Below, in pieces: positions 8,501 to 64,000 of a DNA stretch of 64,000 bases. Location of the stretch: NCBI GenBank assembly GCA_916610825.1, contig OU744451.1, positions 13,045,520 through 13,109,519 on the forward strand, in the 5' to 3' direction. Each line of letters opens with the position of its first letter. Position 1 is the first letter of the stretch. Made by a program: the position numbers and the translations under genes. Under the pieces are notes generated by a model. It saw only the letters and a list, made by a program, of their open reading frames with translations. It did no database searches and was not told the origin of the DNA. Source of the stretch: Haliclystus octoradiatus. Taxonomy: Eukaryota > Cnidaria > Staurozoa > Stauromedusae > Haliclystidae.

Positions 8501-11500
8501 ATGGTTTGATTCGCTTGTACGATTTTATGCTCTCGTTGGGAGAGAATGTCAAACTCACTCGGCTCGCAGAGCCTCGCTCGTTGGCTGAACATTCTCTCCC
8601 AACTCATGCATAAAAATTGTGACCGCTCATCAACCATGAAGTAATCTCTATGTATTTTCTAATCAAACCATGATGGATAGAAATGCCTACTAGCCGGACC
8701 CTTCTTGCAAAAAATTAATGAGTCCATGATCATAAGGTTCATGAACAGTTCATGAAAATTGTGCAATTTCATGTTCATAAATTCATGAACTTTTTTACAT
8801 TGATTCTGGAATAAGGTTTTTCCTTTAGAATCATAATTTTCAGGTTCCATCAATGAAAGTAACTTGTATACCTTGTTTTTAATCAATGCAAGCTTGCCAA
8901 ATAAAATTGTGCACACACACACTACACACTCATCATGAAATGTTGGCTGGAGGAGATGAAGATAATATATTTTGTTTAATTAATGTTTTTCTATAAATCT
9001 GTAGTATTTTTATTAATTAGCGTAATTAGTTATTTACCTCTTTACTATGTAACCCCGTACTCGTTACATATAAATGGCTTTGTTAAACATAATTTAAACT
9101 GAGTATTATTCAAGCAGTCTTAAATGCTGCATCGTAATATTAGTTATATCCATTGAAAATTATATTTTGATTTCTTATTGTTGTTGCCATTCTCTGGCTA
9201 GAGTTAATTCAAAACTCTGCATATCTATTCTAGGTGCACACATCAAACTGAAGGATAATGGATGGGCCCTTGGAATAGAGGCAGGACTTAAGTCTGTTGG
9301 TTTAGCCTATTGTTGTCATGATAACCATGATAGGTTATTACTTAGAGGTCTCATGTCCCAAGTGTGTGGTCGTGAAAAACAGCCTGATGTTATCGTTACT
9401 CTTTTCACGGTAAGTTAGCAAGCAAGCATCTATCCCACCAGTCTCCCATATAAGGAAGGCCACTAGAAAGCTTTTTTCAACAAAAGCACATGTTTTAATC
9501 ATAGCAAGACAATGATTAACAGGCAAATGATTAATTTTTTTCCTGATTCTTGATTATAATTGAGATTCAAAAATATATTTTTTTGAACTTGTGAAATTAT
9601 TCATTATAAAACTTATTAAAAATTAAACATGCATTATTTAACTAAATTTAATTTATTTGAAACTTATCAGCCATTTGTATGCCACTTCATACCAAGATCG
9701 CAACTTTCACAGAAACTATAATAATTTGAGTAAACACTTACACCTAATATCTCTTTTCAAATCTGGTACATACTGCAAAGAATACTGATACTTGATAAAA
9801 TTTTATATTACACTTGAACTTGTTGAGCAGATAATTTATTTTGTGCCTCCAATGTGTGTCATATGATATCAAGTGGTTTTGAGATTGAATCAAACCTATA
9901 TTGTTGGAATGTTTGTTCTATACAGTACTGTATATAATATATTAATAATACTGTCTGTTTATATATCACAATATTTCTATATTTCTATATTTCTATATTT
10001 CGATATTTCGATATTTCGATATTTCTGTGTCTGTCCGCGACTTATGTACGTCTTACTGGCGATATAATACGGATAATCCGTTGTCGGGAAATTATGCAAA
10101 CATTTGTGTCGAGATAACCGTGTACAGTAACAAATTTGTTGTATGAAAAGTATGGGTCTATGACGTTGTTTTAAAATAATATACTTCATCTGATAATTTA
10201 TTTGATATCCTTGCATTAAAAAATTCAGAGATTTTGAAAAATTTCATAGGTCGATAATCTAGCGGGCAGCCAAATCGAATTCAAATTGAAATCCCCAGAA
10301 GAAAAATATTTTGCTTTGAATTTAAAAGCTGCGTGTAAATTGTTTGAGCAAGTGAAACTTGAAAATGAATCAGTTTTATGATAATTAAAACAATACGAAA
10401 TACTGAATTACATTGAATTACCAGTATAAATAGGCCAAACAAAATATGTTTTGAAATCAAAGAAACGTAGACTTATTTCATGTAGTGTTGATATCAGCAA
10501 TACATATAGCGCTGCACAAACGCTATGAAAATTAAAGAGACTTTAGGTCTTTAATTTATAAATGAAACAAAATGCCGTTCATTACTTTTCACAAAATCGA
10601 GATACAAAACATTTCACTTTTAAAAAGGCTATTTTGATATATAATTTGTGAGAACACTGAGCAAACAATCTGTTTTGAAATGAATAATCTATCGCGGGGC
10701 ATAAAAACAAATTAACTTTCAAGAATTTTCAAAATGACGTTGGCGTTCGATCAATTCGAAAAATATTCAAAGTTCGAATAGATTATCTGTCTACAGTATA
10801 AAATTATAGAGTTTAGAACTAATCAAGGCATTGCACAAAAGTATTTCTATAATTTATTAGTGAATATAAAAATATGAATCATTTGGTTATGAGCAGGCAG
10901 GCTTTTATTTTCAGATTTTGCTTCAATAATTAACGAAGGAATTATAGGCATCGATTAAAATTAAAATTTCATTTTGTTGACTTGCTATACGAATAACACA
11001 CAGTATGTTACTACAGTTTCGAGAATAAAAATAGCGATGTCTTGTTATTATCGTTGATCAACATTTAATAAAGTTAATTTTTTCAGGTATATCAAATTCA
11101 ACAAAGTTAAATTGAATTGAGCGTATGATTTGTGATAAATAATAATAATTATAATATTTTCAGCGTTCAAAAATTTTGCTTTGAATTTAAAAGCACAAAA
11201 ACATAATTTAAAAACATTTTTAAATAGTTAATACAGTTTGGATGAGTGTAACAAACCTTGTGTTACAAAAATAAAAAGCGAAAAGGTTGCATGAAATAAT
11301 CGATCATAGCAAACAATATTTATTAAAATACAACTTACCATTTTCCAAATGAGATCCAAATAAAAACTATACGAGCGGCATAATCTCCGAACAACATTTA
11401 AATACATAATAGCGGGTTCTCTGAGTTAATACACCAATCAATAATAAGTTAACAACCATATTTTATCGAAGGAGAATGTACGCCCGATAAGAATAAAATA

Positions 11501-29904: not shown

Positions 29905-29975
29905 ATTTGCGACTTCGCCTGCGAAAAGCAGTTCAAGAGTTCATGAACAGTTCATGAACATTTCATGAACGGTAG
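29905..29975. repeat. GTTCATGAAC element, single arm
   Basis: GCCTGCGAAAAGCAGTTCAA leads into tandem GTTCATGAACA units. The opposite arm is absent. Confidence 0.75.
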
Positions 29976-44870: not shown

Positions 44871-47333
44871 ATGAAGCATTCTGGCCATACTCCGCTGCCA
44901 AAACTCCCATTGCCTGAGAGGTCAGTCCCAATGTTGTCATTAATGATCATCTTCTGAGGGTTTTATCGAATTTAATGACTGGAGGATGTTTGAAAATTAG
45001 ATTCCCAGGAGGACTAGAGATCAGATCATGGTTGCAAATTGCAGTTCATTTTCTGTTTCTGATTCATATTTTAGGGTTCGGAAATGACAGAGAGAGCAAA
45101 TTGATGCCCTAATGGTATCATTAGCTGCATGTCTGTCTTCGAATGATTTAATTTTATCTATGTGTGTTTTGCTATAGAACTACTTTTACTTGTAGAGACT
45201 TAAATTTTATAATAATAAGATTGTAAAATTGTATTCCTTGAACATAATAATTGGAGAGCTAGCTGGAGCTGCTAAGCAAACGGGTAATGGCAGTGAAATT
45301 ATTTATAGGGTCTTATGGGTAACATTGAAAAATATAGATGTTTTATTTTACTTAACCGTTTGTATAGGATACACTCTTTCAATGGCAAATTGTTTTGATG
45401 TGGTTGGTACATCTCAGCTTTTCCAACTAGCAAATGTAATTGATTAGTGATCATAACACTATGTATATAAAATTACCAGGACAATAAGAACATTGAATAG
45501 GTTTTCAATTTATAATAAAAAAATGTGCTTGATTATTCAAGACAGTGGAGAAGGAATCTTATTGCTATATTACCATTTTACAAACATTCATTTCAGTCTC
45601 TGGGTCTATCAATCTTCAAGTTTACTAATTGACAGTACATTTGTTAATTAATAGAACCCACAACTTTCATCAACCTTTATACAACAACTACAACAATTCC
45701 CGCAATATGATTGTTTGCCCTGCTTATAAAGACCACCTGTCTCTACCAGTCGGTTCATTCAATTCCAGAAACGGATTCCACATACATACATAAGAAAACC
45801 ATATTGATATTTGAGACATATAAACGTGTGGCTGTACAACTTTGAAAATTACATACAATAATTATATACATTAATTTACATAGACTGCGTACGTTTCTTG
45901 ATGTCCAAGGGTAATAATTATAAGTAGCTTATTAGCTATCAATTCTATTTTGGAATGAAATCAATGTTATAGTCTTACTTCAAATTGTTTTTGTTAAGGT
46001 TTGAAAGGTCAGTATTTTTATTAAGCAGCTTAGGGCCTTGATAATTAAAACGCCGCTTACTGCGATCAGTTACAATTGATGGTAATACAAATTTGTTGTC
46101 ACTTTCCAGACGGGTGTTATGTCCATGTACAGGTAGTTTGAAAAATGACTGCAACCCTTGAGAAAAACAGTTCAGGAGTTCATGAACAGCTCATGAACAG
46201 TTCATGAATGTTAAAGGGCCCCAAATTTTCATGAACTGTTCATGAACTGTTCATGAACTCCTGAACTGTTTTACCTGAACTGTGCTGCTGAAAATGATAA
46301 CATTCCATCGCATGTGAAACCAATTTCAAATGAGCATCATATGCAGTGCATGTAACACAGTGCTCCATCATTTCTTCCAGTGTCCTCCAGCCGAGATCTT
46401 CAAAACAATGGCTAACATGGTCATACTTTTTCAAGTTCAGGATTATTTTGGCAGAACGATTAAGGATACCACGATGAAGACGAGCTAGCTGTGTAGGATA
46501 ACAGGAGCCGAGAACTGGGAGTCCATACATCGCCGGGCTTATGATGGTCAACTCAACTACTTTCTTCAGCGTTTGGACAGGAATGTCATGTTTTATACGA
46601 TTAATGTTGCATAATCTTTGATTCGCTGTACGCAGGACGTTATCAATATGTTTTGTGAATGTGTGATTATTGTCAAATTCAATTCCAAGGTTTCGTGCAG
46701 AATTAACGTACTTCAAGGTTGTTAATCCGAGCTGAATATCTGGATAATTGTCCAAGCAAATCTTTTTAGTTTTTCCAATTAACATTGCTTGGGATTTATT
46801 GGGATTGATTTTCAAGCTGTTAGCTGAGCACCATTTATTCACATTTTCAAGGTCAGCATTCATTTTTGATGCGACAATTCCAATATCATCAATTTTTGGA
46901 TTAAAGTTACTCAGTAGTTGAGTATCATCAGCGAATTGATATGACTTTGAATGCGTCACAGATTGCGGGAGATCATTGACGTATAATAAAAACAATAGTA
47001 GGCCTAGTATAGATCCCTGCGGGACTCCGGATATCAAATTTACAGAATCAGAGTAAATATTGCCTACTTTCACGATTTGGTTTCGGAATGATAAGTATGA
47101 TTTGAACCATTGGATTGCATTAACAGATAGTCCCATTATTTCAAGTTTATGTAGTAAAATTGGATGTTGTATATTTCAAGTAAAATATATGGGTATATTT
47201 TATCAGGTGCCACGAAGTTGATATATTTCGTCCAATTTCAAGTTTTGCTCCTTTGGCAAAGAGTACACAGACAGAATACACCCTTAAATCAAACTCTATC
47301 AAGCACCAGCTTCCATCTCCAAATGCATTGAAA
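44871..47333 (+). CDS. TSNAXIP1: TSNAXIP1 exons 1-2 (N-terminus)
   Basis: Exon 1 reads MKHSGHTPLPKLPLPE and ends AG|gtcagt in phase 2. Exon 2 (after TTTTATCAG) continues CHEVDIFRPISSF and ends NALK|gtaagt in phase 0. This part is poorly conserved in the family, so the call rests on splice sites, phase, start codon and position below the X-box. A truncated LINE occupies the intron, ending about 40 bp before the exon 2 acceptor. Confidence 0.7.
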
Positions 47334-50300
47334 GTAAGTACCTACTATCTTATTAAATTATTCATCATCATCAATAAAGATGATTTGTTCTTCACACTTC
47401 CATTGATATAAATGGTACATCCAAGCAATTAATCATTATTATATTCTGTAATAGCCATACGCTGACCGTGTCCAAGGAAAGTATGAGACTTGGCCAGCCC
47501 ATGCTTCAAAGATTCGCAGCAGCGGTGAAGTGAAAAACGGCGGACACCAACAATCAATGTTACACGAGCCAGCGCCTGAGTTTGTTTCTCAGTTAGAAAG
47601 CTGGCTCTGTGTTGAGCTAAACAGCATAAAACAGAAGGCAGAATGTCAACAAGCAGACAGCAGACTATTGGTATATGTGAACATTTTTATTGATATAAAT
47701 AATAATATATATTTTACTTTACTTTGATGGAAATATCGCACATAGACACCATTAGTATCTGTTTTAAATTAAATCCAGTCACACACAAACAGCTAAACAT
47801 AGTAATGTAGGGTAGGTAAAGGGTTAATTAACTTATCTTTCTAAACTAAAGGCATTCTGAAATAAATCAATCCGTCCGGGCAAGTCATTTAAAATATTAT
47901 AGATAAACTATTAAACCATTCATCTTAATATTACTACAAGATTTTGGCCTAGCTGCTTGGTTGGTGGGAGGTGGCAGGCGGCAATAATTATAAAGGCTGG
48001 CAGAACAAAGGCAGACCTGACACCACCAATCAATCTCCAGTCACACTGCTAAGTCAGCGGAATTCCTAGTCATACCTACCAACCATAACTTTGAATGGGA
48101 GGAGGGTAGGAGAAAAAATGTTCCACATTTAACCGGCAATAAACAACAACCCAAACTCCGTCATCAATAGCATAGCCTAGCATAGCAACAACAACAACAC
48201 CAACGACATCAGCATGACCCAAAGCATTAATATATAGCATAGCATAGCAACAACAATAACATCAATTATAGCGGCATGACCCAAATCATTAATATAGCAT
48301 AGCTCAGCAACAACAACATCAATGGCAGCGGCACAACCCAAAGCATTAGCATAGCAACCACAACACCAACACAAACGATAGTGGAACGGCCCAGGCATTA
48401 GCATGTCATAGCAGCAACAACAACAAAAATCCTAATTCGCAGCAATCAACAAGCATATTTGACCAGCATCAAACAACGGCAGCCAACACCTCAATAATCA
48501 TTGGCATAGCATTATAACAGTAAATATGACCTCAATTAAAGCAGCATCAAAATAAATTTACACCTTGCGGAAGTTGGCTGAAATGAACTAAGCAGCAAGC
48601 TGGCAAAGCAAGGAATGAATAAAACGCGCAAGAAAACTGTAAAGTAGATTAGATGACCCACTGCGTAATACCTAACCCCTCCTGTGAACCCGAGCCTCAA
48701 TACCAGGCTTCTTCCTCTAACCTAAAAAGTAATAGCTCACAATATATGCAACTTGAAGATGACGGTTTAACCTCGGTAAAATTCCATTTAACCCCAATTA
48801 AAAATATTCAAAATGATAGAAAATGCCTAAGATTTTGAAACAAAATACATTCCGATCCTATGAGGTATGAACAATGCACAATGGTGTTGATAATACCGTG
48901 TCATTTTCATACAGCAAGTACAGTCTTGTAAGAGTCTTGCAAACACAAAATGCTTCAAATATATCTGAAGATTTTACAGATGATAACATCAAAATTACAT
49001 CAAGCGTTCGATTGATAGAAAGTTCTATTCCATTTTATCTGATACTTTCACTTCATCATTTGTTTGGTTGGTCCTTTCAATAGCTTATAGTGATGAAGCA
49101 TGCATACCTCAATGATAACCCCTCGCTTCTTTATTAACATTTATATTGCTTGTGCTGTAATTGACAATATGATTGTTTAAATGATCAACATTGTGTTAAA
49201 GGTATACAGCCAACTCTTTGATTGCATTATAAACAATTTCAAGACATATAAAAGACCACTTGCGTCAATTAAAGCTGAATATGAATCGACAATTGAAAGA
49301 TTGAGAGAGAAAATCAATACTCTTGAATCGCTTGAGGTAGGATAGATATGTAATGATAAGAAGAACCAATAGATAGATCGTTGTAATATTATACATAAAA
49401 ATAATCCATTGCTAATGGTATATTTAGGGAATGGCAGCAAACTTTGCAGAACAATGCCAACGGAAGGTATTAGACGCCAAACAAGATGAAAGAGGAAGTA
49501 TGTAATTTGATTGTGTTTATGTTGTTTAGAGTTGCAATGCTTCTAACGTGAAACAAATTTCACGAGTTAATGAGCGTGAAGTTGCCCAATTTTTAATGAA
49601 CTTAGCTTCAGTTCATGAACAGCAAATAAAATGTTTCTGAAATTTTGGGCAATTTCAAGTTCATGAAATGGTTCGTGAATTGTGCACGAACTGTTCATGA
49701 GCCCAAATAAAAAGTTTTAGGAACATTTCATGAAGTTCATTAATTGTTCATTGACTGTTAATGAAGTTCATGATCTGCCTTTGCAAGAAACAGTTCAGGA
49801 ACAGTTTATGAATGTTAAATGGCCCAAATATTCATGAACTGTTCATGAAATGTAAATGAAAGTTCATGAACTGTTCATGGAAATTGGGGACATTAAACGT
49901 TCATGAACTGTTCATGAACTCCTGAACTGTTTCTCGCAGAGGAAATTTCGAAAAAGTCAATGTATTGCTCTAATTTTGCTTTATTTCTTGCAAAATGCAA
50001 CAAACATCAACACAATTCTACTTAAGTACTTTTAAAGAATAGCCTATGGAATCTAAAGAAATGTTTATGATGTCACAAACTATCAATACGTCCATGAAGT
50101 GGCTATGTATTATGTAGAGTTATAATTACAGCACAAATTTGTTACCTGAGTGCATACGTTACAACTAACATGTTGATCCAAGTACTGATATAAAATTATT
50201 AGAGGGCAGCATAAACCTCATATCTATTTCCCGTACTCTTATAAAGTTATCCTTAATTTAGAAAATAATCAAAAATAGAAAGCACAGCCAGAACTGCATT

Positions 50301-53300
50301 GCATATAATAAAATTAGACTTGGCTGACTTCATTACTCACTACTCAAACTGCACATGCTGATGACTTTACTGGCCTTCAATATCTACCAAAGAAAGTCAG
50401 CATAACCTTTGCGGTATTATTTTGTATAATAAACATACTAATTTATGGGCAAAGGAGATATGGGATTTATTTTCCAAGCGTTCAGGTCAATATCTCATAA
50501 GTGAGGCTCTTTTGAGCGCCCATGAATTATTCTCTATGTATTAATGTGTTATATTTGAATATAATTGAACATCCTAAGATGCATTCATAACAATTTTATT
50601 TGAGAGAAATACATGCTTCTAATAATTACTTTGTTCCAGCCATTTCAAGTCTCGAAGGAAAAATTGAACAGATGTCACAGACCATAACAGATCTGAGGTT
50701 GGCCTATTGTAACACATGTATACTTGTTGAAGAAATGTTCTAGGATTCTAGAAAGCTAGAAGTTTTGTCAGATACTGTCATTAGTTATGATGCTGTGATT
50801 AAGTCTCCTGCATAAATACAGTTTATAAATACCAACTAGCCTCTTTTTATGAGCATGTTTGTTACAAAAAGATCAATGGGATTGAAAAGCAAAATACTAA
50901 TAACTATTTTCAAAATCAAACACTAAAACTAATTCTGCAAACTTTATATCTCTTTGAGACGAAAGTAAGTAGCGCATAGATTATCCAAAATGTTGTAATA
51001 TCTTCCTCAAGCATGACAATATCTTGTGAAGTTATTTCTAGTACCTTTAATCTGGTATAGCATATAACCAGTTTTCCCAGCTATATTTGTAATTTCCCCT
51101 GCGAAAAACAGTTCAGGAGTTCATGAACAGTTCATGAACAGTTCATAAATGTTAAATGGCTCCATTTTTTCTGAACAGTTCATGAACCTTCACTAAAGGG
51201 TTACCACACACTTGCCATGTTTGTATTCATATTTACTAAACGAGAAAATGTTGGGAGACACGAGTGAAGCGCTAAAAAATCACGAGCTCCGAGCGAGTGA
51301 TTTTTAGCTTCCTGAGTGTCTCCCAACTTTTTTGAGTTTAGTAAATATGAATACAAACATTTGCAAGCGTGTGGTAACCCTTTTCTAAAATAAAACAAAC
51401 GTCGGAATTTCATTCGAGGGCAGATTCTCAATTCACAAATTCACAATTTAAAATTCAATTTCAATTCATAAACCAAGCAAAGGAAATCCCACAACAAGAT
51501 ATATATTGTTGAATAAAGAAAGACACATCCAAGAACTTCTGTAATATAAATTGTACATAGTTCTCTAGAAATTGATGCACTAATTGTTATCTAAATTTAA
51601 GGTTTACCTTGAAACAGCGTAGCCTATAATTGTATCTCATTCTGTGTTTTTATTTTGCATGCTGCACGGCGAACAACTCATTTACCACGCTCTTCAATAA
51701 ATATAAAGATCTTCAGCTAAATGTCGTTTTGTAAATCGTAGCCATTATTGAGATATTTATTGGATTGTTATCAAAAAGTTATAAATTCTGTATTTTATCA
51801 CAGATCAAACTTTTTGAAACTTGCGGTTTTTCCCGGTTTTCGGAGCCATGTTTTACCCTAGGATTTCATGCACGCTCTTTCGACCAATCAGATCGCAGAA
51901 AACCTTCGTGATATTTTAGAAAGACAGTTCATGAACAGTTCATGAACAGTTTCATGAAAATTTGGGGCCATTTAACGTTCATGAACTGTTCATGAACTCC
52001 TGGACTGTTTCCGCAGGGGTTAATAAAACCGTAACTCCTATCCACCAGTTCGTAAATTTTGTAAATTTGATTACTTCTAGGGAAGACAAAAGGTCTATTC
52101 AATCACAAGTTGTCAAGGTAAATATAAAATACAAAATTCAAGAACAGATACTAGGCAATAGCCTGCAATAATGTATAAAGTTGTGAGCAGAAACTAAGTT
52201 CATGAATGTCAAGTGACTTCATTGCAATGGTTCACAAGCCGTCCATGAACCGAAAAAATGTATTAGTAGTAGCAGTTGTATAACAGCACACAGACGATAA
52301 AGAAACTAATAACAAAATAAATAATCAAAACATTGTATGTGAACTTTGCCCACACCCACAACAGCTGTACAATTCATATTTCGACATGAAGCCCATAAAT
52401 GGGGATGATGTCATGTTTTGCAAAATGCTGGAGCATTGTGATCGTAAATATTGCAGAAAATTGAGTTTGCAAGGTAGCCATATTTCAAATGTGAAATATT
52501 ACATTATCTTTATAGCTTCAATATCAAGTTGCTGAGGAATATCAAAAGTATCGACACGAAGGAGATGCAAGGCAAGTGATAAAAAAGAAATCCAAACATA
52601 CTTAGGGTGGTGCTTGCTACTTACAATTTATTCATATATTTCCAATCATAGAAAACTGCTAATACAAGATCTCAATGAGCTACGTGCTTATCATGAGCAT
52701 TCAAAGAAAGCTGCAAATGAGGGGGTAGAAGGGGATACACAGGGCGATGCTGTGATGCTGCAAATAGCACTGAGGTAATATTATGAAGATGATGATCATC
52801 AATATCTCAAACCTTGTAAAATACAGTTAACAAAATTAATATTTCCATTGAGATGTCGCCAAATAGGTAACAGTAGTATAGGCAATAATTACACACTGGA
52901 AAAACAGTCCACACACTATTCATAAACATCTATAATAATTTCACTAACACTTCATGAATAATTTTGACACAGAATCTTAACACAACTTACAACGTTTCAA
53001 CACATTTTCTTGTGCCATTCTTAAGTGAATATTTTATTAACTATAAAATTACAAATTTATAGTATAAATGTTGTCCCTTGTGGGTCGAATGTACATCAAA
53101 TAGTAAATAAAATACTGAATATTGAAGAAATGGTATATTAAAAAAAACTATTAAAAACATTGCTGCACAAAGCCCACTGAATATGCTCATCGGAAGATCA
53201 TTTTAAAACGTAATGCAAAGAACATTTTTATATTTTTAACAAACTTAAGTACCCGTCTCATCTTTTTAACTCTATTGTAAAAAAAATGATAAGTAATAAT

Positions 53301-56300
53301 TTTAGCGGTAGACCTTTGCCTGATGAAAACGTAAATATTGTAAATATAGTTCTACCTTGTAAGGACCAACGATGCAGCAATGAAGCTAGGAAAGAATTTA
53401 ATTGTCTTAACTGTAAATTTAGTGTAAATTTTAATCCAATGTTTAAAAGCAAGAAACTGCTTGATGATCTTCGTCATTGTGAAGAAAAGCCATGTTTACT
53501 TACTACACAATGCGTTGTATATCGTTTTAAATGTGGTCTGTGTGAAGCAGACTATGTCGGTTACACATGCCGTCATTTATACGAACGCATAGAAGATCAT
53601 TGTAAAAGCAACCTTGGCAAACATCTTCAGCAGGAACATCTTTCTTCACTTGAAGATTTTGAATAATTTTTACGGTTATAAGAAAGTGTAGAAACAAATT
53701 TGACTGTTTAGTTCATGAAATGTTGACCATTCATGAACTCAAGTCAAAATTAAATGTTCAAGGCGACTCAAATAGAGCTAGAGTATTTTAGATTTTCAAT
53801 ATTCATTGTTTTCGTAGTATTTTTAGATTTCCCCCTTTATATGGACTTTAAAATAGTTATTTGAAATTTAATTAGTTCAATTTCTAGGCTTTGTATGTAA
53901 TATACATTGGATTTTAATTTCTTCAATATTCAGTATGTTATTTACTATTTGATGTACATTTGACCCGCAAGGGGCAATTTTTTTTACAATAAATTTGTAA
54001 TTTTATAATTAATAAAATATTCATTTGAGAATGGCACAAGAAAATGTGTTGAAACGTTGCACTAATATTCTGTGTCAGAATTATCAAAACAAGACTCTTA
54101 GATAGTTCATGAATAGTGTATAAATGTTGACGATTCTATTTCCATAAGCTTCATGACACACATTCCACTTGGTTGAGATTTCCAATGGAGTCTGCTGAAG
54201 CCAAAACATGGATTTGCACATAATGTTTCTAAAACTATTGCAAAAGTATCCAAAGTTATGTGCATCATTTTCATAGAGCTGAAAATGATTGTCTACATTC
54301 CAAGTTTCAAACAATATTGCAATTGATTTTGAATAGATTTTATTATTAAAATTTGAATCACTGTAGGCAGGCAAGAAACGATTTATCAAAGAAGTCAAAA
54401 GAACTGAACACAATGACAGCAAATTATGGCGATGTTGTTCCGAGGAGTGATTATGAAAAATTGGCTGACGAGCACAAGGTACGCAGGATATTATACAGTA
54501 ATTAGAACTAAGATATTGCAACTCAAAACTGCAATTATACGGATTTTTAAAAGGGCAGAAGTTTATCTAAGTACCTTATGAAAATGAACCAAATAAAATA
54601 TATTTTCCATCTCCAAGTTATAAACAGCATATTTACGAAATAATTACTTGATAAAACCAATGTAAAGCCATTAAAATTCACATTTCTGACACAACATTTT
54701 CCACAAATCTTCAATGTCGCACAGGTTTGGGGACAGTAAAGTTGCAAAGTAAGCGTTCAATTGTTACTATTTTTAATTTAGCTTAATATGTAATACATGC
54801 ATGAGAGTAGAGTTCAGTCAAAAAGGAGGAAAACCCTTAAAACCCCCTTAAAACAATAACTAGATCTGTGCTTTCTTTGGTTTGGTGCTAACAGAAAAAA
54901 GGAAATCCGTTGATCAAAGAAACTCTCTCATGTCTGGCGATAGGACAATAAAGTGAAAAGGAATGTTGTTGATTTCCAGTAGGATGGCGGCAGTATAAGT
55001 TCTAGGATGATCTTTAAACTGTTGCGATATGATCACAACTCTAGCACATCGCCATTAATCATAATCTTGTGTAAGCAAATAATGTAAAAACCTTGATTGA
55101 AAAAGTTGTAATAAATTATACAATCTAATATACAAAATTACTCTTCTAAACTAATTGCTTACGAAATTGTACACATTTGTGATTTTCAGACTACAAAACA
55201 TAGATGCAAAGAACTTGATATTGAAAATGAAAAACTTGCAAAAGAAACTAGGTTTGAATCAGACCAAATGAAAATTAGTATAAACACTGTTGTGATTGAG
55301 AATCCAAAACAAATAACAATATACCCTTATAATGTATGAGTGGATTTCTTCAGGAGACTTCTTGAACTTCATTCATATACGCAGCAACAACTAAACGAAA
55401 ATCAAAAAGAGTATAAGATGATACAGCGCTGTGCAACTCCAAGGCAAGACTCTTAATAATTACATGCCCACTCTTAAAATCTATTTTACTGACATTAACC
55501 CTTCAACTATCTGTTGTAGGCCAGACTGGACTAGATGTGGTGCTCACATCGAAGGTGGTCATGAGAGATGGTCAAATATATCAAAGGGTCAAAGTAGTGA
55601 TTATAAAGTAGATCTACTGTTATGTGAAATCACTGGTCAAGATATTGCTGTTATACAAGCAAACAGAGAGAACGTCACCGATCATTTTGTTGGGCTAGTA
55701 AGTATGAAAAGTTCTTGCCTTGGAATATTATAGAATGGCTCTCATTTAGGGTTGGCCATTGCTACATGAAATTTAAGGCATTTTATACTGATGTTTGAAA
55801 TGTCAGTGGGGGAGGGGGGGTAAGTCTGCAGTCTGCCTTGATTAACTCTACAACGTCAAATTATCCAGAAGCAGTTTCTTCATCAAAAAATCAATAAACT
55901 ACTTTTTATTTGTTATCCTTCACAGGGATTTGGGGATGGAGTACCAACATATCTTCAAACAGAAGACAAGGTTATCAACCGACATATATCAAAAAATGAA
56001 GCTATCAAATTGATATCTGACATATGGAAATCAAGGAAAGAAAACAAGAAACAAGTGAGACAAATAAACTGATTCTTATCTACATAACACAATCATGAAC
56101 ATTTCCTATTGATATTGATTTCCATTTTTGCCTGTACAGAATGGAAATAATACAATTCGTCTCCCAGAATACTTAAGTTTTTACTTAAACGAAAAGCACA
56201 GTAATGATACCATTGCCTCATTTGAAGATGCATACAACCTTCACGATGCATGCACGCGTTATCTATATGACGTATATATTTCTACATTCAATAATATCTT

Positions 56301-58376
56301 GAATGAAATGGTAAGTAAGATGATTAATTTAGTTACCTACTGAGTGAGCCATGCTGAGTACTTCAATGTATTGTCTTTTGAATCTGTAATCGTAAAAAAT
56401 CAGACATAATGGTAATCGATTAGAATAATTTGCATTGCATGATATTCAAAACGTTAAACATTGTTTTCATTTTAATTGTGTAGTGAGTCACTACCAGATG
56501 ATGTAGTTTGTGCAAATTCACTAAATCATTAAATTTGTATAACCTATAACTACCTAATGTAGGAATGTTGAATAAATGCCCTCTATGTGTGTATTGGAGT
56601 CATGTATGTGTTATCCAGTGGCTGTCCAAAATATCCCCTGTGAAAATAAGCCATGAGTTCATGAACAGTCCATGAACTTCATAATCTTTCATGAACAGTT
56701 CATGAACTTTCGTTAACAGTTCATGAAAATTTCTTTATAGGTTCATGAACAGTCACAAAGACTTCATGAATGTGAAATTGTCTGAATGTTCATGAACAGT
56801 TCATAATCTTTTGGGCAATCTTTTTGAACTCATGAACTTTTTTCACAGGGGATGCTCAACTTAAAGTCATAATGTTTATAGGCAAATGCCCTTGAAAATT
56901 GAAACGCATACGGTATTTACAATTATCACAACAAATGTTGGGTTTGTTGCACTGATTCAAGCTCATACCACTGAGGCTATAAATTAACAATTCAATTTTG
57001 TCTTCAGATGGATGAGAGTGTTTTTGAAGAGCAAGAAAAGTTCATTAACAAATTGGAAAAGTTGGTATCAGAGAGATTTAGAGATTCAAAACCTGTGAGT
57101 TCAATTTGCCAACAAAGAAACTCTACTTTGAATTTCAGTTTATTGTTATAATAAATTTATCATTCATCCTGTTCAATTTTTATAACCCTAGGAAGATGCT
57201 AACAAAGAGACAATCAAGAGTATATTGCAGGACATTCTATCTTTAAAGTCCAATCACACCATAGATGAGCTTCTACAAGCTTTAGAAGAGGATGTTCAAC
57301 AAATCAATTCAGAAACAAAACTTGAAAATGCCTTTGAGAAGGTTAATATGTTTAAAAAATAATTTTCACAGTGGTTTGGAAATCAGTCTGATAAAAGTAT
57401 AACTTTCTTTGATACTATATTCAACAGGGCGGTAAAGGCCAAATGCCAAGTCAATTTGTTAGGACAATTTTAAATCAAGAGCAAGCTGAAAAAGAAGCAT
57501 TTCTCTCAAGTCTTGAAAAAGTGCTTATCAACCAAGGGTACGATATTCAATAATTCATTTCTTGACTGAGCTTTTTTCTTCTTACTCACAATTAGAGTCT
57601 TCTTAAATCAAAATTTCATAATGTTACTGTTAATTTGGAATATCACGGGCACAATAGCATGCCTATGTATAGGTCTGTGTTCATGAAATGCTTAGAATGT
57701 TGTATTCCACATAGTTCAATATTAGACCCTAGGTGAATTACTCAACCAATATATCACCATAGGTAATTTACTAACTTCTATAATAATAATCAGTTAGTGT
57801 TTAGCTCAGTACGTGGTTGGTTCTACTGTAGCGACCTTATTTATTGAGTGTTGTCTTTGTGTTGTCTTTACTAACGTTGTGCAACACTTCATACGCTCAC
57901 AACAAGTAGTAGTTTCCAAGTCAGAACTTTTTCCGCATCAACTCATGATAGCATCATTATTTTTTATCAAATTTGTTAAATTTGCGGTTCCAAAGTAAGA
58001 AGTTGGTTGCGTAGAGGCATTATGTTGTAAAATTGCATTAAGGGACCTAACTGTTTTGATAGTCACTGTACTAGTTATCACAACCAGTGATTGTGACATA
58101 TACTATATACAATTTAGAGATATATTATACAGTATCACTGTATTGATTTATATTGATTACAGGCAAATAACTGTGGCATCTGTGAAAGTAGCTTTGCAGC
58201 AAATTGATAAAGACATTTCTATGCAACAAACGGTTGAGTATCTTTGTCAAGGATTGCAAGTTGAAGCAAGCCAACTGATTGACAATGGACATGTAGACAT
58301 GCATGTTTTATTAAAAAATCTAAAGTATTCTAGAATTGGAATGACCAGAGGAATCACCTTGGTACACAATGACTGA
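44871..58376 (+). CDS. TSNAXIP1: TSNAXIP1 (translin-associated factor X-interacting protein 1), complete as modelled, 19 coding exons
   Basis: A coiled-coil protein of testis/ciliary expression in vertebrates that binds TRAX; molecular role unclear. Exons: 44871-44920, 47207-47333, 47455-47670, 49202-49336, 49428-49497, 50640-50697, 52081-52117, 52516-52571, 52652-52774, 54367-54478, 55190-55251, 55354-55443, 55520-55697, 55926-56054, 56140-56310, 57008-57094, 57192-57341, 57428-57537, 58163-58376. Sum 2,175 nt, 724 aa, near the vertebrate size. Landmarks: FVSQLESWL, NNFKTYKRPLASIKAEYE, AEEYQKYRHEGDARKLLIQD, KELNTMTANYGDVVPRSDYE, ATPRPDWTRC, GLGFGDGVPTYLQ. Two introns use GC-AG. Exons 1-2 are the least certain but fit phase and the X-box. 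Confidence 0.94.
45975..47168 (-). pseudogene. 5'-truncated LINE reverse transcriptase in TSNAXIP1 intron 1
   Basis: Antisense to TSNAXIP1. From HPILLHKLEIMGLSVNAI it runs through SGVPQGSILGLLLFLLYVND and SYQFADDTQLLSN (FADD catalytic motif intact) to MECYHFQQHSS, where a 116-bp GTTCATGAAC element is inserted (46158-46273). Past it the frame resumes: LQSFFKLPVHGHNTRLESDN, RRFNYQGPKLLNK, stop at 45977-45975. Everything before motif A is missing. Third LINE type of the window. Confidence 0.92.
46158..46273. mobile_element. GTTCATGAAC element inserted in a LINE reading frame
   Basis: GAGAAAAACAGTTCAGGAGT at the left and its inverse ACTCCTGAACTGTTTT at the right enclose three AGTTCATGAAC-type units per arm and a GGGCCCC centre. 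The LINE sequence on both sides is continuous, so this is an insertion. Confidence 0.88.
47455..49497 (+). CDS. TSNAXIP1: TSNAXIP1 conserved N-terminal domain exons
   Basis: Exons 47455-47670, 49202-49336 and 49428-49497 encode FVSQLESWLCVELNSI, VYSQLFDCIINNFKTYKRPL, IKAEYESTIERLREKINTLE and MAANFAEQCQRKVL. This is the most conserved stretch of the family (human YLEELE..., FEFFIEDFKTYKPLLSSIKN, IRALEPLKAKL). Confidence 0.95.
47945..48830 (+). repeat. GGTGCTTGGTTGGTGGGA repeat family, copy B
   Basis: Begins GGCCTAGCTGCTTGGTTGGT, has CAGACCTGACACCACCAA and CAGTCACACTGCTAAGTCAG as in copy A, and later TTTAACCTCGGTAAAATTCC. A local minisatellite at 48175-48420 makes it longer than copy A. Confidence 0.8.
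48175..48420 (+). repeat. About 60-bp minisatellite
   Basis: Four imperfect units with the words AGCATAGCAACAACAACA and GCATGACCCAAAGCATTA. It produces meaningless Cys/Leu-rich open frames. Confidence 0.9.
49555..49950. mobile_element. GTTCATGAAC elements, tandem or expanded copy
   Basis: Many GTTCATGAAC and CATGAACTGTTCATGAACTC words in both directions, with a right end CTCCTGAACTGTTTCTCGCAGAGG. It looks like two or more elements fused. It lies in the TSNAXIP1 intron 49498-50639. Confidence 0.8.
51096..52019. mobile_element. Composite GTTCATGAAC element carrying a nested GGGTTACC element
   Basis: Left end CCCCTGCGAAAAACAGTTCA; right end, inverted, CCCCTGCGGAAACAGTCCAG. Each arm has GTTCATGAAC tandem units. 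Between them lie the palindromic GGGTTACC element (51198-51380) and a block (51800-51910) that is the inverse of 20878-21005. The right end is only 61 bp before the TSNAXIP1 exon at 52081. Confidence 0.82.
51198..51380. mobile_element. GGGTTACCACAC-family palindromic MITE, complete
   Basis: Ends GGGTTACCACACACTTGC and, inverted, GGGTTACCACACGCTTGC. Similarity of the arms continues through ATTTACTAAACGAGAAAA and TGGGAGACAC to the centre CACGAGCTCCGAGCGAGTGA, so the whole 183 bp can fold. Confidence 0.88.
52572..52651 (+). other. TSNAXIP1: GC-AG intron in TSNAXIP1
   Basis: Exon end GATGCAAG|gcaagt and acceptor ATCATAG. Using GC restores DARKLLIQDLNELR, which matches vertebrate DARKLLIADLNDLR. 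The only nearby GT (52576) shifts the frame and hits a stop. AG|GCAAGT is the standard GC-donor consensus. Confidence 0.92.
52961..54084 (+). mobile_element. Penelope-like element remnant with inverted terminal arms
   Basis: About 165-bp arms in inverse orientation (52961-53130 and 53920-54084) share words such as CAACACATTTTCTTGTGCCA, GATGTACAT and TTCAATATTCAGTAT. They enclose a GIY-YIG endonuclease remnant. Penelope elements often carry such inverted LTR-like flanks. It lies in the TSNAXIP1 intron 52775-54366. Confidence 0.85.
53224..53790 (+). pseudogene. Penelope-like GIY-YIG endonuclease (broken)
   Basis: The frame reads NKLKYPSHLFNSIVKK, VLPCKDQRCSNEARK, CVVYRFKCGLCEADYVGYTC and RHLYERIEDH, then stops at 53664. 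After a short stretch with GTTCATGAA words the family end reappears in another frame: NVQGDSNRARVF and stop (about 53754-53792). YVG(Y)T stands for the GIY-YIG core. The reverse transcriptase part is absent. Confidence 0.85.
54590..54790 (+). repeat. Dispersed repeat shared with DENND11 intron (36000-36230)
   Basis: Same word order as the partner copy: TTGATAAAACCAATGTAAA, TGACACAACATTTTCCAC, GGACAGTAAAGTTGCAAAGT. Confidence 0.8.
55444..55519 (+). other. TSNAXIP1: Second GC-AG intron in TSNAXIP1 (76 bp)
   Basis: Exon end ACTCCAAG|gcaaga and acceptor CTGTTGTAG give ATPRPDWTRC, matching vertebrate STPRPDWTKC. No GT donor gives this join. Confidence 0.93.
56633..56853. mobile_element. GTTCATGAAC element, complete copy with terminal inverted repeats
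   Basis: ATCCCCTGTGAAAA at the left and its exact inverse at the right (TTTTCACAGGGGAT) bound 221 bp. The interior holds at least seven GTTCATGAAC-like units. Best single copy for defining the family ends. It lies in the TSNAXIP1 intron 56311-57007. Confidence 0.88.
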
Positions 58377-58442
58377 TACCAGAGGCTTTACTAATTATGT
58401 AAAATTTTGGCATATTAACATTGATTAACTTTTAAATTAATT

Positions 58443-58448
58443 TTTAAT
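58443..58448 (-). promoter_or_regulatory. Possible poly(A) signal ATTAAA of USB1
   Basis: ATTAAA on the minus strand about 48 nt past the USB1 stop, inside the 119-bp gap shared with TSNAXIP1. Confidence 0.45.
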
Positions 58449-58495
58449 TGTGAAATGAATGTCACCAAATGTAGTATAGTACTTACATTTTAAAC

Positions 58496-61400
58496 CTAAG
58501 GCGATTCATTCTGTAATTTGAACAAATGGTACTTATTTCCAGTCTTGAGATTAATTTCTGTGACAAGAGTACTTGGAAGCTCATTTTCATCAATATCAGC
58601 AATCATGTCCTGTAATATTTCAACGAAAACCAATCCAGCAGTTACATTTCAATTCCTTCTAAAAACACCATAATTTGATTCCTATAAAAAGTGTGTGTAA
58701 TTTTTTATTGAAATCCTATAGGGTTTCTATTTGTACATATGATAGGTAATTTTGAAACATTTCCTATCAGAATTTTATAGGATTTCAATAGAATTCTTAA
58801 AAGACATATATGAGTTAAAAGGAAGATAATAGCTCAGATGGCAGAACAACCAGACTTCGGATCTGATTATATCTGATCAACCGTGGTTCAAATCCACCAA
58901 AGGTCAACTCAGCATTGACTAAAAACATCAAATAAATACCATCTAAGGATGGAGGATGGAACGGTCTGGAGGGAATTGCATTGTGAGTAGTTGCGGTGCA
59001 TCACTGTGCAGTGTCACAACGGATATCAGCAAAGAGCATTTACAATCATTTATCTTAGCAAAGAGCCACTACGCTAAATAGAAGAGTGATACAGGCACCG
59101 TCTCAATTACCACACTTTATATGAATTATAATGACAAATCAACGCAAACAATCAGTATTTGCCTACTCGATATGAGTTACAGTGTATTACTACATTTTTT
59201 GGCTGCACCAGGACATTGATATCAACGAGGTTACATTGCATATAGATTATTATAACCCCATTGTATGCTGAATGATGACATGTATATAAAGCTATAAAGG
59301 CAAACATCTATTTATTGGTACCTGGTACTGTAATACAAACTAAAAATATCAACAGAAAATGTTTCCTTGAACATGACATACATAGAACAGTTCTCTCAAA
59401 AGATCTAACATTGATTGAGGATTGTATGAAGATAATAATAAGATGAAGATGAAAGAAGATACTGTTAATATAAAGCATACCAGTGTTCGTTACCATGAAT
59501 GGAGTCAGGGCAGTCCCTAGCATGGGAGTATTGGGGCGTGACACCCCCCTGGGGACTTGGTTAGTCGGCAAATCTGCCTCGAAATGTCTCCAGTAGGCAG
59601 AAGGGAGAAGAAATGGCAAAGGAATATGGTGATATTCGCTGTCTAAGAGTAGAAATAAGAGAGTAATTCTAATTCTTGTCCATTTATTCATGTCCACACA
59701 AATCATGAACGCTGTAGAGACAATTATCTTCAACTTTTGGCGTTTTATTAGGACAAACGAGAGAAATTTTGGGTCTGATGGGATTTCTTAAACACATGGC
59801 CTGAAAAGTTTTCATCGCTATGCTCGGCAAGGTTAACCACGAATGGGAAACCTTGGTGTGACGGATTCAACTCCGGATATCGCACCTTAAACTTTCTTCC
59901 AACTTACCGTTACATATCCGGATCGGATCCGACTCCGGTAAAGTTGGCAAATTTATTGCTCAACACCTCAAAAAATTTTCTCCACACGGCCATGAATGGA
60001 GTACATAATAGTAATGTATATAATAGCATACCTTTGCTTTCTGAAGGGTTGATCTATACCCTTGAGTAACATCACATAGATCCCAAGCAAAACTAACATG
60101 AAATGAAGGATCCTATAATATAATGCAAGCATGCTTGTAAGTCACCACATTACCCAGACATTGCACAATGAATAATTAACTTGAATATGTGACGGTGCGT
60201 GTCAGAATCAACAATCGGGGGAAATACAATCGTTCAGCATGGAGGAAAGAAGTGGGAAAATACTGAGAAATTATCAAATAAGGCATTTTCATTTTATAGC
60301 TTCATCTAGGCAATAAAAAACCTTTCTTGTGGAAGTGCTCTTTTTCAATATGTTAACAAATTAATGGCTTATTCTTGATTGAAAGTCGTTCCTAAAGAGG
60401 TTGATGAATTGCAATATACATTATTCGAAGTGAAATCAGGACTATTTTACAGAATAGCGTAAGTCATTCAAAATGTAAAACAAAACTCAAATCGTGAAAC
60501 TCAAATCGTAAATCTTGAGAAAATGTTTAATTGAAGTAGAAGAGAGCAAATACCTCATCGATGAATGTTTTCGTTTGAATGATAACATGAACACAATAGA
60601 AAATAAATGAATGAGAATAATGACTTTACCTTATCATAATAAAAGCGATATGGGAAAGTTAGAAAGCATTTTACTCACAATAGCAAACTATTATTCATGT
60701 CATTTGAAGTTAAAGAAGATTAACGTAACACTTCTAAATTTAAATTTATAACTATTAAATTAATTAAATATTAAGAATTTGTGTAAACGCATCATACAAA
60801 TCTGTTGTTGTTGTTTTGTGGTATCTCATCTTGAAAGCTGTGATAATTTGAGACAGAAGAAAATTAAATAGAAAAATCATTATTGTTTGATTTCTTAAGT
60901 ATCAACCTACTATAATTTTTAATTTCAACAAAATTGGCGCGTCTTGAAGTGGTGTTGTCAAGGAGTTACAAGTTTTGTACAATACATAAAATTTACGCTC
61001 CGTTTTCTACGTTGCGTACTTTTAAAACTCTTTGCTATGAGCTTACTGTATTTTAGTTTATGAAGTGAGTTATAGTCGTCTGATCAGAAAACAATTTCAA
61101 GATTTAAGAAAGCATATAATTCTACACAAGACTAGCAAATGTAACGAAATCCGATCAATGTTTGAAACGTTGCATTTGACACGAACCATTACATATATTG
61201 TTAATATTGACTTAAACAAATTATGCTGCGAGAAGGTACACTTATGCAATTCATTAACACAAGCAGTGCATAAAGAGCTAGTGATTGTTAGCTTTTTGAA
61301 TGACTGACAGCACCCAAGTATTAAAGTGCACATGACACCAACCAAATTTTAACACAGGTTTGGGTGGCTGAAGCTAAAGAGCCATTTACACTGCAGCAAA

Positions 61401-62894
61401 ATAGGCACGGTACTCGTCAATTAACACATAAAAGGTGTGGTGTCAAGTGCTTTTGAGCACATGCCAATCAAATGCACTGTCTAAACGGCTTTTTCAGACA
61501 TTGAAAGGCGGCACCGTGCCTATTATTTTGATCGGGCCGAGATCATTTCTCGAGGTGGTCTGGTCCCGCTCAAAAAGTGGGTACCGTGCCGTTTTGCAAT
61601 AATTATGACGTCATCGCAGAAGTTGCGTCTCTTTACAGTGGAAGTCAGAGGTTGTCTGATTAAATCAGTAACAGAATAAAGCTTTGCGATTTAGATAAGC
61701 ATAATAAGCATAATTTGTTTCGTATTTCTGTAGAAAACTAATGAAGTTTCTGTAGCATAACGTTTAAATATGCAAATTGTAACTAGGAATTGGGAGCGTA
61801 AAATTAGATGTGTATTTTGTTACAGAAATACACACTACTCTAGCGTGGTAGCATGTTCAGGATGTGAAAGACTAACCCAAATGTATTTGAACTTTGCTTA
61901 ATTGAGATGAGAATATAAATATTATAATTGAGGAAAACATAGTGATTTTCAGTTCAACGGAATCCTAACAAGTTATTTAACTTGATTGAATCTTAATTTA
62001 TCGAATTTTACCGATAAAACCATTAAATAATGAGAAACCTATAATTCAGTTTGCAAATTTTCAATCTCGGCCCACGTAAAAATAGGCACGGGTGAGCTTG
62101 AAAACAGTTCTCATAAGCTGCGTAAACCCTGAAAAAACCCAGCCGGGTCACATTCTTGGTGTTAATGACGAATATCATGCCTGTTTTTCTGCAGTGTAAA
62201 TGGCCCTTAAATGATGAAAAGTGGTTAAAACTTACACTTTTTTCCAAACTCAGAACGACAGTCGGAATGATAAGAAGGCTTACTATGGGAAAAAAATGAA
62301 GCCATAAGCAGGGTAAGACAAATGTAGGAATCCTGGAATCCTAGATTCCAGAAGGTTAGAGCAGGTTCAGAAGGAAATTGATATTTTAAATGATTTAGTG
62401 GTCAAAAATCAACAAAAATTCAGAAGAAAATGTTGAAATGCTTCTAGGATCCCAGAAGGCTGAACATTTTGTCGGAACCTGGCCATACGCAAAGCCAATA
62501 ATTTATGTGTCATGTGCACTTTAATAAGTGATACCGCCCATATTATCTAATAATACGTTCAATTATCATATTTATGAATTTAAATACCTCAATTATTTAC
62601 CCAAAGTAGTATAAATTCAAATGGCCATCGTATTGTCTTTGATTAAAAATTGAGCTATCTGTCAATAGCATGACTTCAACATTTCCGAAATAATTTCTAA
62701 TAATTGCTTTTGAATATTTTACTGTCATCATTATTACTTGTATTCATCAAATGAAGAGAAAACAAGTAAAACGTAAAAAATGTAACAGATAGTCTAACAG
62801 GGATGCATACTAGCTTTGCATGAGTTACCTTGTAGTAGCACTCTAAACCAAAAGAGGTGAATATGGAATCAATGTGCTTTACAAGGTCTAACAG
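58496..62894 (-). CDS. USB1: USB1, U6 snRNA phosphodiesterase 1 (last three exons; 5' part not found or outside window)
   Basis: USB1 is a 2H-family exonuclease that trims the oligo(U) 3' end of U6 snRNA in the nucleus and leaves a 2',3'-cyclic phosphate. Exons in gene order: 62894-62829, 60112-60032, 58609-58496; all junctions are phase 0 and the end is TAG. Encoded landmarks: LLDLVKHIDSIFTSF, DPSFHVSFAWDLCD with the second catalytic HxS motif (HVS), INLKTGNKYHLFKL. Human USB1 has FLDLVSEVDRVMEEF, DPSFHLSLAW and RCKSGNKFFSMPL in the same order. The first HxS exon was not recognised up to 64000. The gene converges on TSNAXIP1 with 119 bp between stop codons. Confidence 0.92.
58822..59102 (+). 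mobile_element. tRNA-derived SINE family 1, copy in USB1 intron
   Basis: AATAGCTCAGATGGCAGAAC head, B-box-like GTGGTTCAAATCC, body with ACCATCTAAGGATGGAGGAT and a tail AGAAGAGTGATACAGGCACCG. More diverged than the 21797 copy. Confidence 0.82.
59103..60031. other. USB1 intron remainder
   Basis: No coding exon of USB1 fits here. A GC-richer patch at 59500-59600 and one at 59880-59940 look like decayed repeats. The 141-codon minus-strand frame 59308-59733 has no motif and no useful splice phase. Confidence 0.4.
61378..62207. mobile_element. PIF/Harbinger-like non-autonomous element with TAA duplication
   Basis: Ends AGAGCCATTTACACTGCAG and, inverted, AGGGCCATTTACACTGCAG, differing at one base, flanked by TAA on both sides (61375-61377, 62208-62210). 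A 3-bp TAA/TTA duplication is typical of PIF/Harbinger. The interior has inner inverted words (GGCACGGTAC, GTACCGTGCC) and no transposase. It lies in the USB1 intron 60113-62828. Confidence 0.8.
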
Positions 62895-64000
62895 CTACAA
62901 TAAAAACAATGCTTGGTGCTTAATGTGGAGCAGTATAAACATAATGATAAAAAACAGTGCAAGTTGTATTGCACATCAATTGCACGTTATAACGCAAGCA
63001 ACTAAAATATCTGTTTCTTAATTTCTTAATGCGATGATGATTGAAAAGAAAATTGAAAATCATTAGCATCAGTTTAAAGACATCATCATTATAACATCAT
63101 AAAAATGCATGCTCTGATATGCAGAGTATTAAATCAAATCCAATCCCTGGTTCATGATCTAGTAATTTGCCCCTGCGAAAACAGCTCATGAATATTGAAT
63201 AGCTCCATTGTTATGACGACTTCATTAAATTAAATTACATTTACCAAGGCTGACGGTTGCAGCCAAGGGGATCTTACATACCGGTACACATAAAATGTAA
63301 ACTAACTGCAAACAGTAATATACAAATGCTGGGAGCTGTACAATATTACTTTAAGAGGGGTAAAATAAGAAAATAAGATAAATGTTACTTTATAGCATGC
63401 TCTAGCAGACCCTTTAGTGGAATTTAGTTTCTATTCTATACAAATGTAGAACAATAAATGATGTTATCCTCATTCTGTCTCAACTGTACAGTGTAAATAA
63501 ACATACCTTAAGCACCTCTGTGAAACAAATCATGAAATCAACATGAATAAAGTCCAGGAAAACAGACCATTTAACTCTTAGAAATGAGAGAATTTATGAA
63601 CTGTTTAGAAGATGTTCATTCTCTTGACACTTTCTATTATTTTACATCTATATAGCTTGGTCCTTCATCTAGCAAGGCCTGAACGGCCACAATGTCACAC
63701 TATTTTGGTCATGAAAACTTATATCATATAACGTCCACTTTTTATTTCAATGCATAATAACACTTTCAAATGAACAGTAGCAGAACAGCAGATCCAAGTC
63801 TGTTATCAGAGATGGATATGATGTCATATATAATATTACATTTTCAGTTAACTACAAATGATATAACTGAGAGTCAGCCCGTAAGCACAGAGTGCGCACA
63901 CTCTGCCACTGAGCTACCAGTGCACAATATTTAGATATTTAAATATATATTGTTCAATTGTTTAAAAATAGTGATGTCACACAACATATAACAGACACTC
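62895..64000. other. Window end: USB1 intron or upstream sequence, no exon recognised
   Basis: AT-rich. It holds a GTTCATGAAC-element end (about 63171-63195, GCCCCTGCGAAAACAGCTCA) and a minus-strand tRNA-like head at 63866-63925 (CTGGTAGCTCAGTGGCAGAG). The expected USB1 exon with the first HxS motif was not seen. Confidence 0.5.

Follow-up and report, generated by a model that had tools for sequence, protein, structure and literature searches.

Short MITE-like elements with 11-bp-phased palindromic units form a high-copy family in the staurozoan Haliclystus octoradiatus

The DNA analysed here (the window, 64,000 nucleotides) corresponds to C7:13045520-13109519 on chromosome 6 (C7, 26.96 Mb) of Haliclystus octoradiatus jrHalOcto1.1, an assembly described as comprising 33 scaffolds with a longest scaffold of 39,977,743 and an N50 of 28,991,210 (PMC9975415). 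The window contains 21 exact occurrences of the ten-letter palindrome GTTCATGAAC against 0.13 expected (maximum of 1 over 100 shuffles), and these belong to a family of short repeated elements. When 35 complete copies lying outside the window were used as BLAST queries, seven stretches of the window were matched (Table 1), compared with two of nine arbitrary 10-kb samples and none in the reversed window. An earlier note, made from the sequence of this DNA, had listed a similar set of copies; its entries covered by the seven BLAST stretches are retained, while the outer end at 63170 and the scraps at 53710 and 54095 found no match with the complete-copy queries. Its 221-bp copy at 56633-56853 resolves into a shorter element plus the target duplication on either side. 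The two stretches at 51096-51193 and 51919-52019 are read as halves of one copy split by nested sequence, within which lies an unrelated fold-back repeat with its arms at 51217-51270 and 51307-51360. Target duplications in the window were seen only at this split copy and at 56635-56851.

Table 1 Copies of the element family and associated sequence in the window.
Position	Strand	Feature	Details
8704..8796	.	Old, degraded copy	63.5 bits against complete copies (BLAST)
29918..29974	.	One-ended fragment	Three units spaced 11 bp, plus outer end
46155..46283	.	Copy within LINE reverse-transcriptase frame	Arms of 45 bp (98% complementary); right terminus degraded
49560..49942	.	One long degraded copy, or two copies side by side	
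51096..51193	+	Left half of split copy	TT ahead
51194..51918	.	Nested sequence splitting copy 51096-52019	
51919..52019	+	Right half of split copy	TT after
56635..56851	.	Complete copy (217 bp) from a diverged subfamily	CCCCTGTGAAAATAAG end; AT/AT target duplication
63170..63195	+	Outer end only, truncated copy	CCCCTGCGAAAACAG; also given as CCCCTGCGAAAACAGCTCATGAAT

The window also holds other repeats. Inverted repeats of 79 nt (94% complementary) and 66 nt (91%) lie within 52958-54084 and enclose a frame whose GIY-YIG match (53214-53663) falls short of the curated cut-off, an arrangement resembling a Penelope-type remnant, and tandem arrays occur at 833-1089 (30-bp unit) and 37403-37889 (201-bp unit). 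No Rfam family reached its gathering score in window positions 45000-64000. Elsewhere in the assembly, contig 33 is the mitochondrial genome, with cox1 opposite to cox2, and both this arrangement and its sequence are of cnidarian type.

The anatomy of the family was established from 36 distinct complete copies, defined by both ends with at most two mismatches, 60-450 bp apart, and at least two unit remnants. These copies are 74-410 bp long (median 183) and terminate in CCCCTGCGAAAAACAG...CTGTTTTTCGCAGGGG, with inverted ends CCCCTGCGAAAAACAGTTCAGGA of the CCCC...GGGG type. In the fullest order, the 23-bp end CCCCTGCGAAAAACAGTTCAGGA is followed by a unit array, the non-palindromic spacer GTTAAATGGCCCCAAATTTTC, a second array and the centre motif CCTCACAGACA, and then by the mirror image of these parts. 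Many complete copies are without some of these parts, and block lengths and module counts differ from copy to copy: spacers were recognised zero times in four copies, once in 16, twice in 13, three times in one and four times in two, and the centre motif was recognised in 21 of the 36. Units with up to two mismatches number 318 in the complete copies, 150 of them exact, and 111 of the 273 spacings between successive exact units no more than 60 bp apart equal 11 bp, and additional maxima fall at 21-22, 32, 37-38, 48 and 60 bp. Of 104 unit clusters in the DNA analysed, an end can be recognised on one or both sides in 77 (on both in 37) and on neither side in 27. One further copy, at L057:1-901, carries several tandem copies of its spacer-array module.

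The earlier note had described arms built throughout of palindromic units and had regarded such densely self-complementary units as unusual for a MITE. The 11-bp-phased GTTCATGAAC units are confirmed, but the end, the spacer and the centre motif are parts of a different kind, and the designation as a MITE with unusual units was right given the copy lengths, the inverted ends and the target duplications described below. Its suggestion that transcription could give very stable hairpin RNA holds as far as naked single strands go, which in DNA folding form long hairpins in all four copies folded (z -14.0 to -16.8).

Because the elements carry rows of units, the ten-letter word is hugely over-represented across the genome. 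In 262 Mb, GTTCATGAAC occurs 49,436 times compared with 364 times for the same palindrome reversed, a 136-fold ratio, and pairs of units separated by a 1-bp gap occur 6,438 times compared with none for the reversed control; together with the count in the window, these numbers leave the proposed family of GTTCATGAAC copies on firm ground. A 44-base string composed of the end and two units has 289 exact matches in the genome and a second end pattern has 594. Dividing the unit count by the mean of 4.2 exact units in a complete copy (150 in 36) or by three per window BLAST stretch (21 in 7) gives approximately 12,000-16,500 copies, an estimate that draws on samples partly picked for density. Among the first 100 of the 289 matches to the 44-base string, those on the two chromosomes assessed lay mostly within the outer 40% of their chromosome (C1, 37 of 50, or 26 of 39 when 50-kb bins are counted; C2, 22 of 31, or 19 of 28 bins).

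Several lines of evidence support the view that the family has moved. Of the 36 complete copies, 29 are flanked by an exact target duplication of 2 bp, whose sequence is free, and seven are not, whereas re-paired flanks gave a mean of 4.2 and a maximum of 14 in 2,000 trials. The duplicated dinucleotides are AT and TA (six each), TG, CT, TT and AA (three each), AG (two) and AC, GA and GT (one each). At 3 bp the flanks matched in one of the 36 copies and at 4 bp likewise in one (ATAT, the L006 copy), and no complete copy had an 8-bp match. The family was also said in the earlier note to have interrupted a LINE reading frame at 46158, and the reverse-transcriptase frame does stop within 46155-46283 and resume on the other side. 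With the joined flanks of this copy as query, 11 matches were obtained, two of which are the window's own flanks. Two others run uninterrupted across the junction (C4:21644409-21644714, query 1-326, 81%; C11:9579709-9579924, query 82-328, 80%), two match in two pieces (C6:27004377-27004660, 24 bases apart; C1:3620717-3620857, 30 bases apart) and a LINE place on C8 matches the left flank only. The places on C4, C11, C6 and C1 leave no room for an insert. Relative to the joined window flanks they are approximately 20-31 bases short around the junction, so the exact borders of 46155-46283, whose right terminus is degraded, are unsure and no target duplication was read there.

The differing flanks, the frequent 2-bp duplications and the LINE places without the insert support the mobility that the earlier note had proposed. 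Segmental duplication is rejected because flanking sequence varies from copy to copy and the 2-bp duplication is present in 29 of 36, and a simple satellite is rejected because the family consists of short copies, scattered through the genome, most of which share the same terminal sequences. MITE-like mobility is thus supported by inverted ends, a 2-bp duplication and many copies at differing sites, and the family holds both near-identical and badly degraded copies.

An 11-bp period, the best period in two copies of the family, was also found at the ends of CACTA transposons in the same genome. Lineage A (L035/L058) was read at both of its CACTATGAAT ends (CACTA and TAGTG; unit AGTTGTGAAAA), with the right border defined by two copies and the L058 element spanning 916-8255. 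Its copies L035:1-6695 and L058:1548-8241 lie on different chromosomes and are 98.3% identical over 6.7 kb, indicating that the lineage moved fairly recently. Lineage B (L059:231-470; unit AAACCGTGAAA) was read at its left end only, which starts with CACTA, and lineage C (L036/L060, L060:236-505; unit around TTTTCAGCA) at its right end only, which carries TAGTG, both with borders set by eye. One CACTA copy is flanked by ATTT on both sides (4 bp, against 2 bp in the family). The best period was 11 bp at all four of the ends examined, where it exceeded the mean by 0.121-0.209, and an excess of at least 0.12 occurred in none of 3,988 random windows and none of 692 interior windows, although the end stretches were picked after the repeats had been noticed and the threshold was set at the weakest end (0.121), making this support and not proof. 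A best period of 11 was found in 150 of the 3,988 random windows (three of these with a value of at least 0.39) and in 15 of the 692 interior windows. The CACTA units are directional and are not palindromes. Local alignment of four family copies with four CACTA ends gave no excess over shuffles in 16 comparisons, the best being equalled or exceeded by 32 of 300 shuffles, and direct sequence homology to the CACTA ends is rejected as not significant. Since the termini also differ (CACTA/TAGTG versus CCCC...GGGG), the family is not filed under CACTA. As a post hoc lead, ACGTTATTTGGGCCC at L059:308-322, between the opposed arrays of lineage B, agrees at 12 of 15 letters with the family spacer ACGTTAAATGGCCCC.

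A transposase-bearing partner with the ends of the family was not found among the DDE_Tnp_4, Transposase_21 and DUF1258 places examined. The genome has 36 matches to Transposase_21, the tnp2-type transposase expected of a CACTA partner, and one weak match to DUF1258. Distances were measured to 241 listed ends, which are a subset of those present and lie mostly on C1, so that the comparison is weak on C5 and later contigs, where few ends are listed. Among 34 Transposase_21 places, one lay 5.4 kb from a listed end and the next 28.9 kb, while 0.25 random places would be expected within 5.4 kb (442 of 2,000 trials; C1, C2 and C4). A changed centre motif led to 49 places, and the 20 that were fetched showed only array modules beside the motif and no transposase; 14 were complete two-ended short copies and six had one or no recognised end. 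A virus or phage origin is rejected, as viral contigs held no exact unit pair and no distant match was found in phages. Among the paper titles retrieved from the literature, none was seen to concern this family, and of the 19 papers containing the string GTTCATGAAC none deals with a transposon to judge by its title.

The anatomy of the family also suits fold-back elements, of which the sea-urchin TU is one example. Like Drosophila FB4, Tetris and Galileo, the copies have long modular inverted arms with variable internal repeats (PMC4079207, PMC2955051), but they are much shorter and their unit is itself palindromic. They also differ from Tetris, a Mutator-like element, in their 2-bp duplication, that of Tetris being 8-10 bp, and the same source discusses the view that extra repeats in Galileo add transposase sites (PMC4079207). 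Another parallel, in the arrays themselves, is provided by CACTA/En-Spm (CMC) elements and their MITEs, which are described as having short, lineage-specific subterminal repeat arrays in direct and inverted orientation; terminal and subterminal repeats of CACTA elements act in cis, and TNPA of En/Spm binds the subterminal ones (PMC2613891). Duplications of 2 bp are reported for some CACTA elements (PMC6004678) and a range of 2-4 bp for CMC (PMC4482050), and the 11-bp period is common to the family and the three CACTA lineages of this genome. In contrast, the family ends are CCCC...GGGG and not CAC...GTG, and only its unit is palindromic. PiggyBac shares 5'-CC...GG-3' ends (PMC10045372), but the family has a free 2-bp duplication and not TTAA, its sole 4-bp match being ATAT, and it is unlike Tc1/mariner in that TA makes up just six of the 29 duplications.

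The elements themselves are a real transposon family. We consider it probable that they are high-copy, non-autonomous cut-and-paste transposons (MITEs of fold-back build) whose palindromic units serve as docking sites for a symmetric dimeric protein of transposition. A transposase supplied in trans would cut at the CCCC/GGGG ends, staggered by 2 bp at the target, and the transposition machinery would include a dimeric DNA-binding protein that docks on the subterminal GTTCATGAAC units. As 11 bp approximates one helical turn, successive dimers would be aligned on one face of the DNA. The unit is its own reverse complement, so each site reads alike from both ends and on both strands; such palindromic units carry no direction and would suit a symmetric dimer, and their number could shift via slippage or unequal pairing. 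Binding of a dimeric protein in arrays, as the earlier note had suggested, is plausible, and gains from the 11-bp-period arrays at the ends of CACTA transposons in the same genome. A CACTA (CMC)-like transposon is the likeliest source of the machinery; the family itself is at most a candidate member of that superfamily.

Elements of this type might instead be moved by a PHIS-type transposase (DDE_Tnp_4; ISL2EU- or Harbinger-like) or another non-CACTA transposase, the 11-bp period then reflecting convergence on the helical turn, which we regard as unlikely but worth weighing. DDE_Tnp_4 genes are abundant, with 150 scored matches among 414 candidates, and 12 of these share 180 bits and 525-codon open frames, which suggests a young ISL2EU-like family. 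ISL2EU resembles the present family in its 2-bp duplications, and PHIS duplications span 0 to 4 bp (PMC10045372). However, the duplications of ISL2EU are described as AT and its ends as usually GG (PMC4482050), while AT accounts for only six of the 29 duplications here and the ends are CC...GG. One DDE_Tnp_4 place that was fetched encodes a THAP and DDE_Tnp_4 protein (L034:1404-2939) and has an old family copy nearby, but the locus shows only one CAGGGG and no CCCCTG. Moreover, four of the 40 DDE_Tnp_4 places assessed on C1 and C2 (of 150) had a listed end less than 15 kb away, at 6.9-9.4 kb and in no case closer than 6 kb, against 2.4 expected for random places. The L034 locus includes, by eye, two direct copies of a repeat of approximately 330 bp (L034:3150-3480 and 4055-4390), possibly the ends of a small LTR-like insert, and a minus-strand frame at L034:5100-5500 that by eye resembles an Ulp1-type protease, perhaps part of a neighbouring transposon.

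It is very unlikely that the units are sites of a host dimeric transcription factor, kept because they make copies useful or safe in transcription. The perfect palindrome, the very many sites and the 150 exact units among 318 would fit such a role; TTCnnGAA resembles part of a heat-shock element, and AGTTCATGAACT a gap-free inverted nuclear-receptor repeat. Nevertheless, the 11-bp subterminal design recurs in the CACTA elements, whose units differ in sequence, and this points to machinery of the elements themselves. The same recurrence counts against what we judge the least likely reading, in which the units have no binding role and palindromic 11-mers spread through the arms by slippage, pairing in any register, as in fold-back elements. 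Tandem amplification inside the L057 copy agrees with slippage, as do outer arrays that are equal in just 13 of 36 copies (four of these without a recognised spacer, where one array is counted for both sides). Yet the order of spacer and centre motif between the arrays tends to be kept across the 36 copies, and the diverged subfamily at 56635-56851 retains the GTTCATGAAC unit despite its other end.

Returning to transposons with docking sites for a symmetric dimer, the family may, more tentatively, represent an as yet unclassified lineage of animal DNA transposons, with a free 2-bp duplication, CCCC...GGGG ends and a palindromic docking site per helical turn, so that a symmetric dimer could coat the whole element from either end. 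If so, its spread would have planted approximately 49,000 identical, highly symmetric sites that the host could use or would need to silence, and these would lie mostly in chromosome arms should the young copies on two chromosomes be typical. With units palindromic here and directional in three CACTA lineages, all at 11 bp, the genome offers a test case for the evolution of transposon-end repeats, and the dense arrays of symmetric sites, so far in excess of their mirror control, amount to a natural experiment on the effects of such arrays on a genome.
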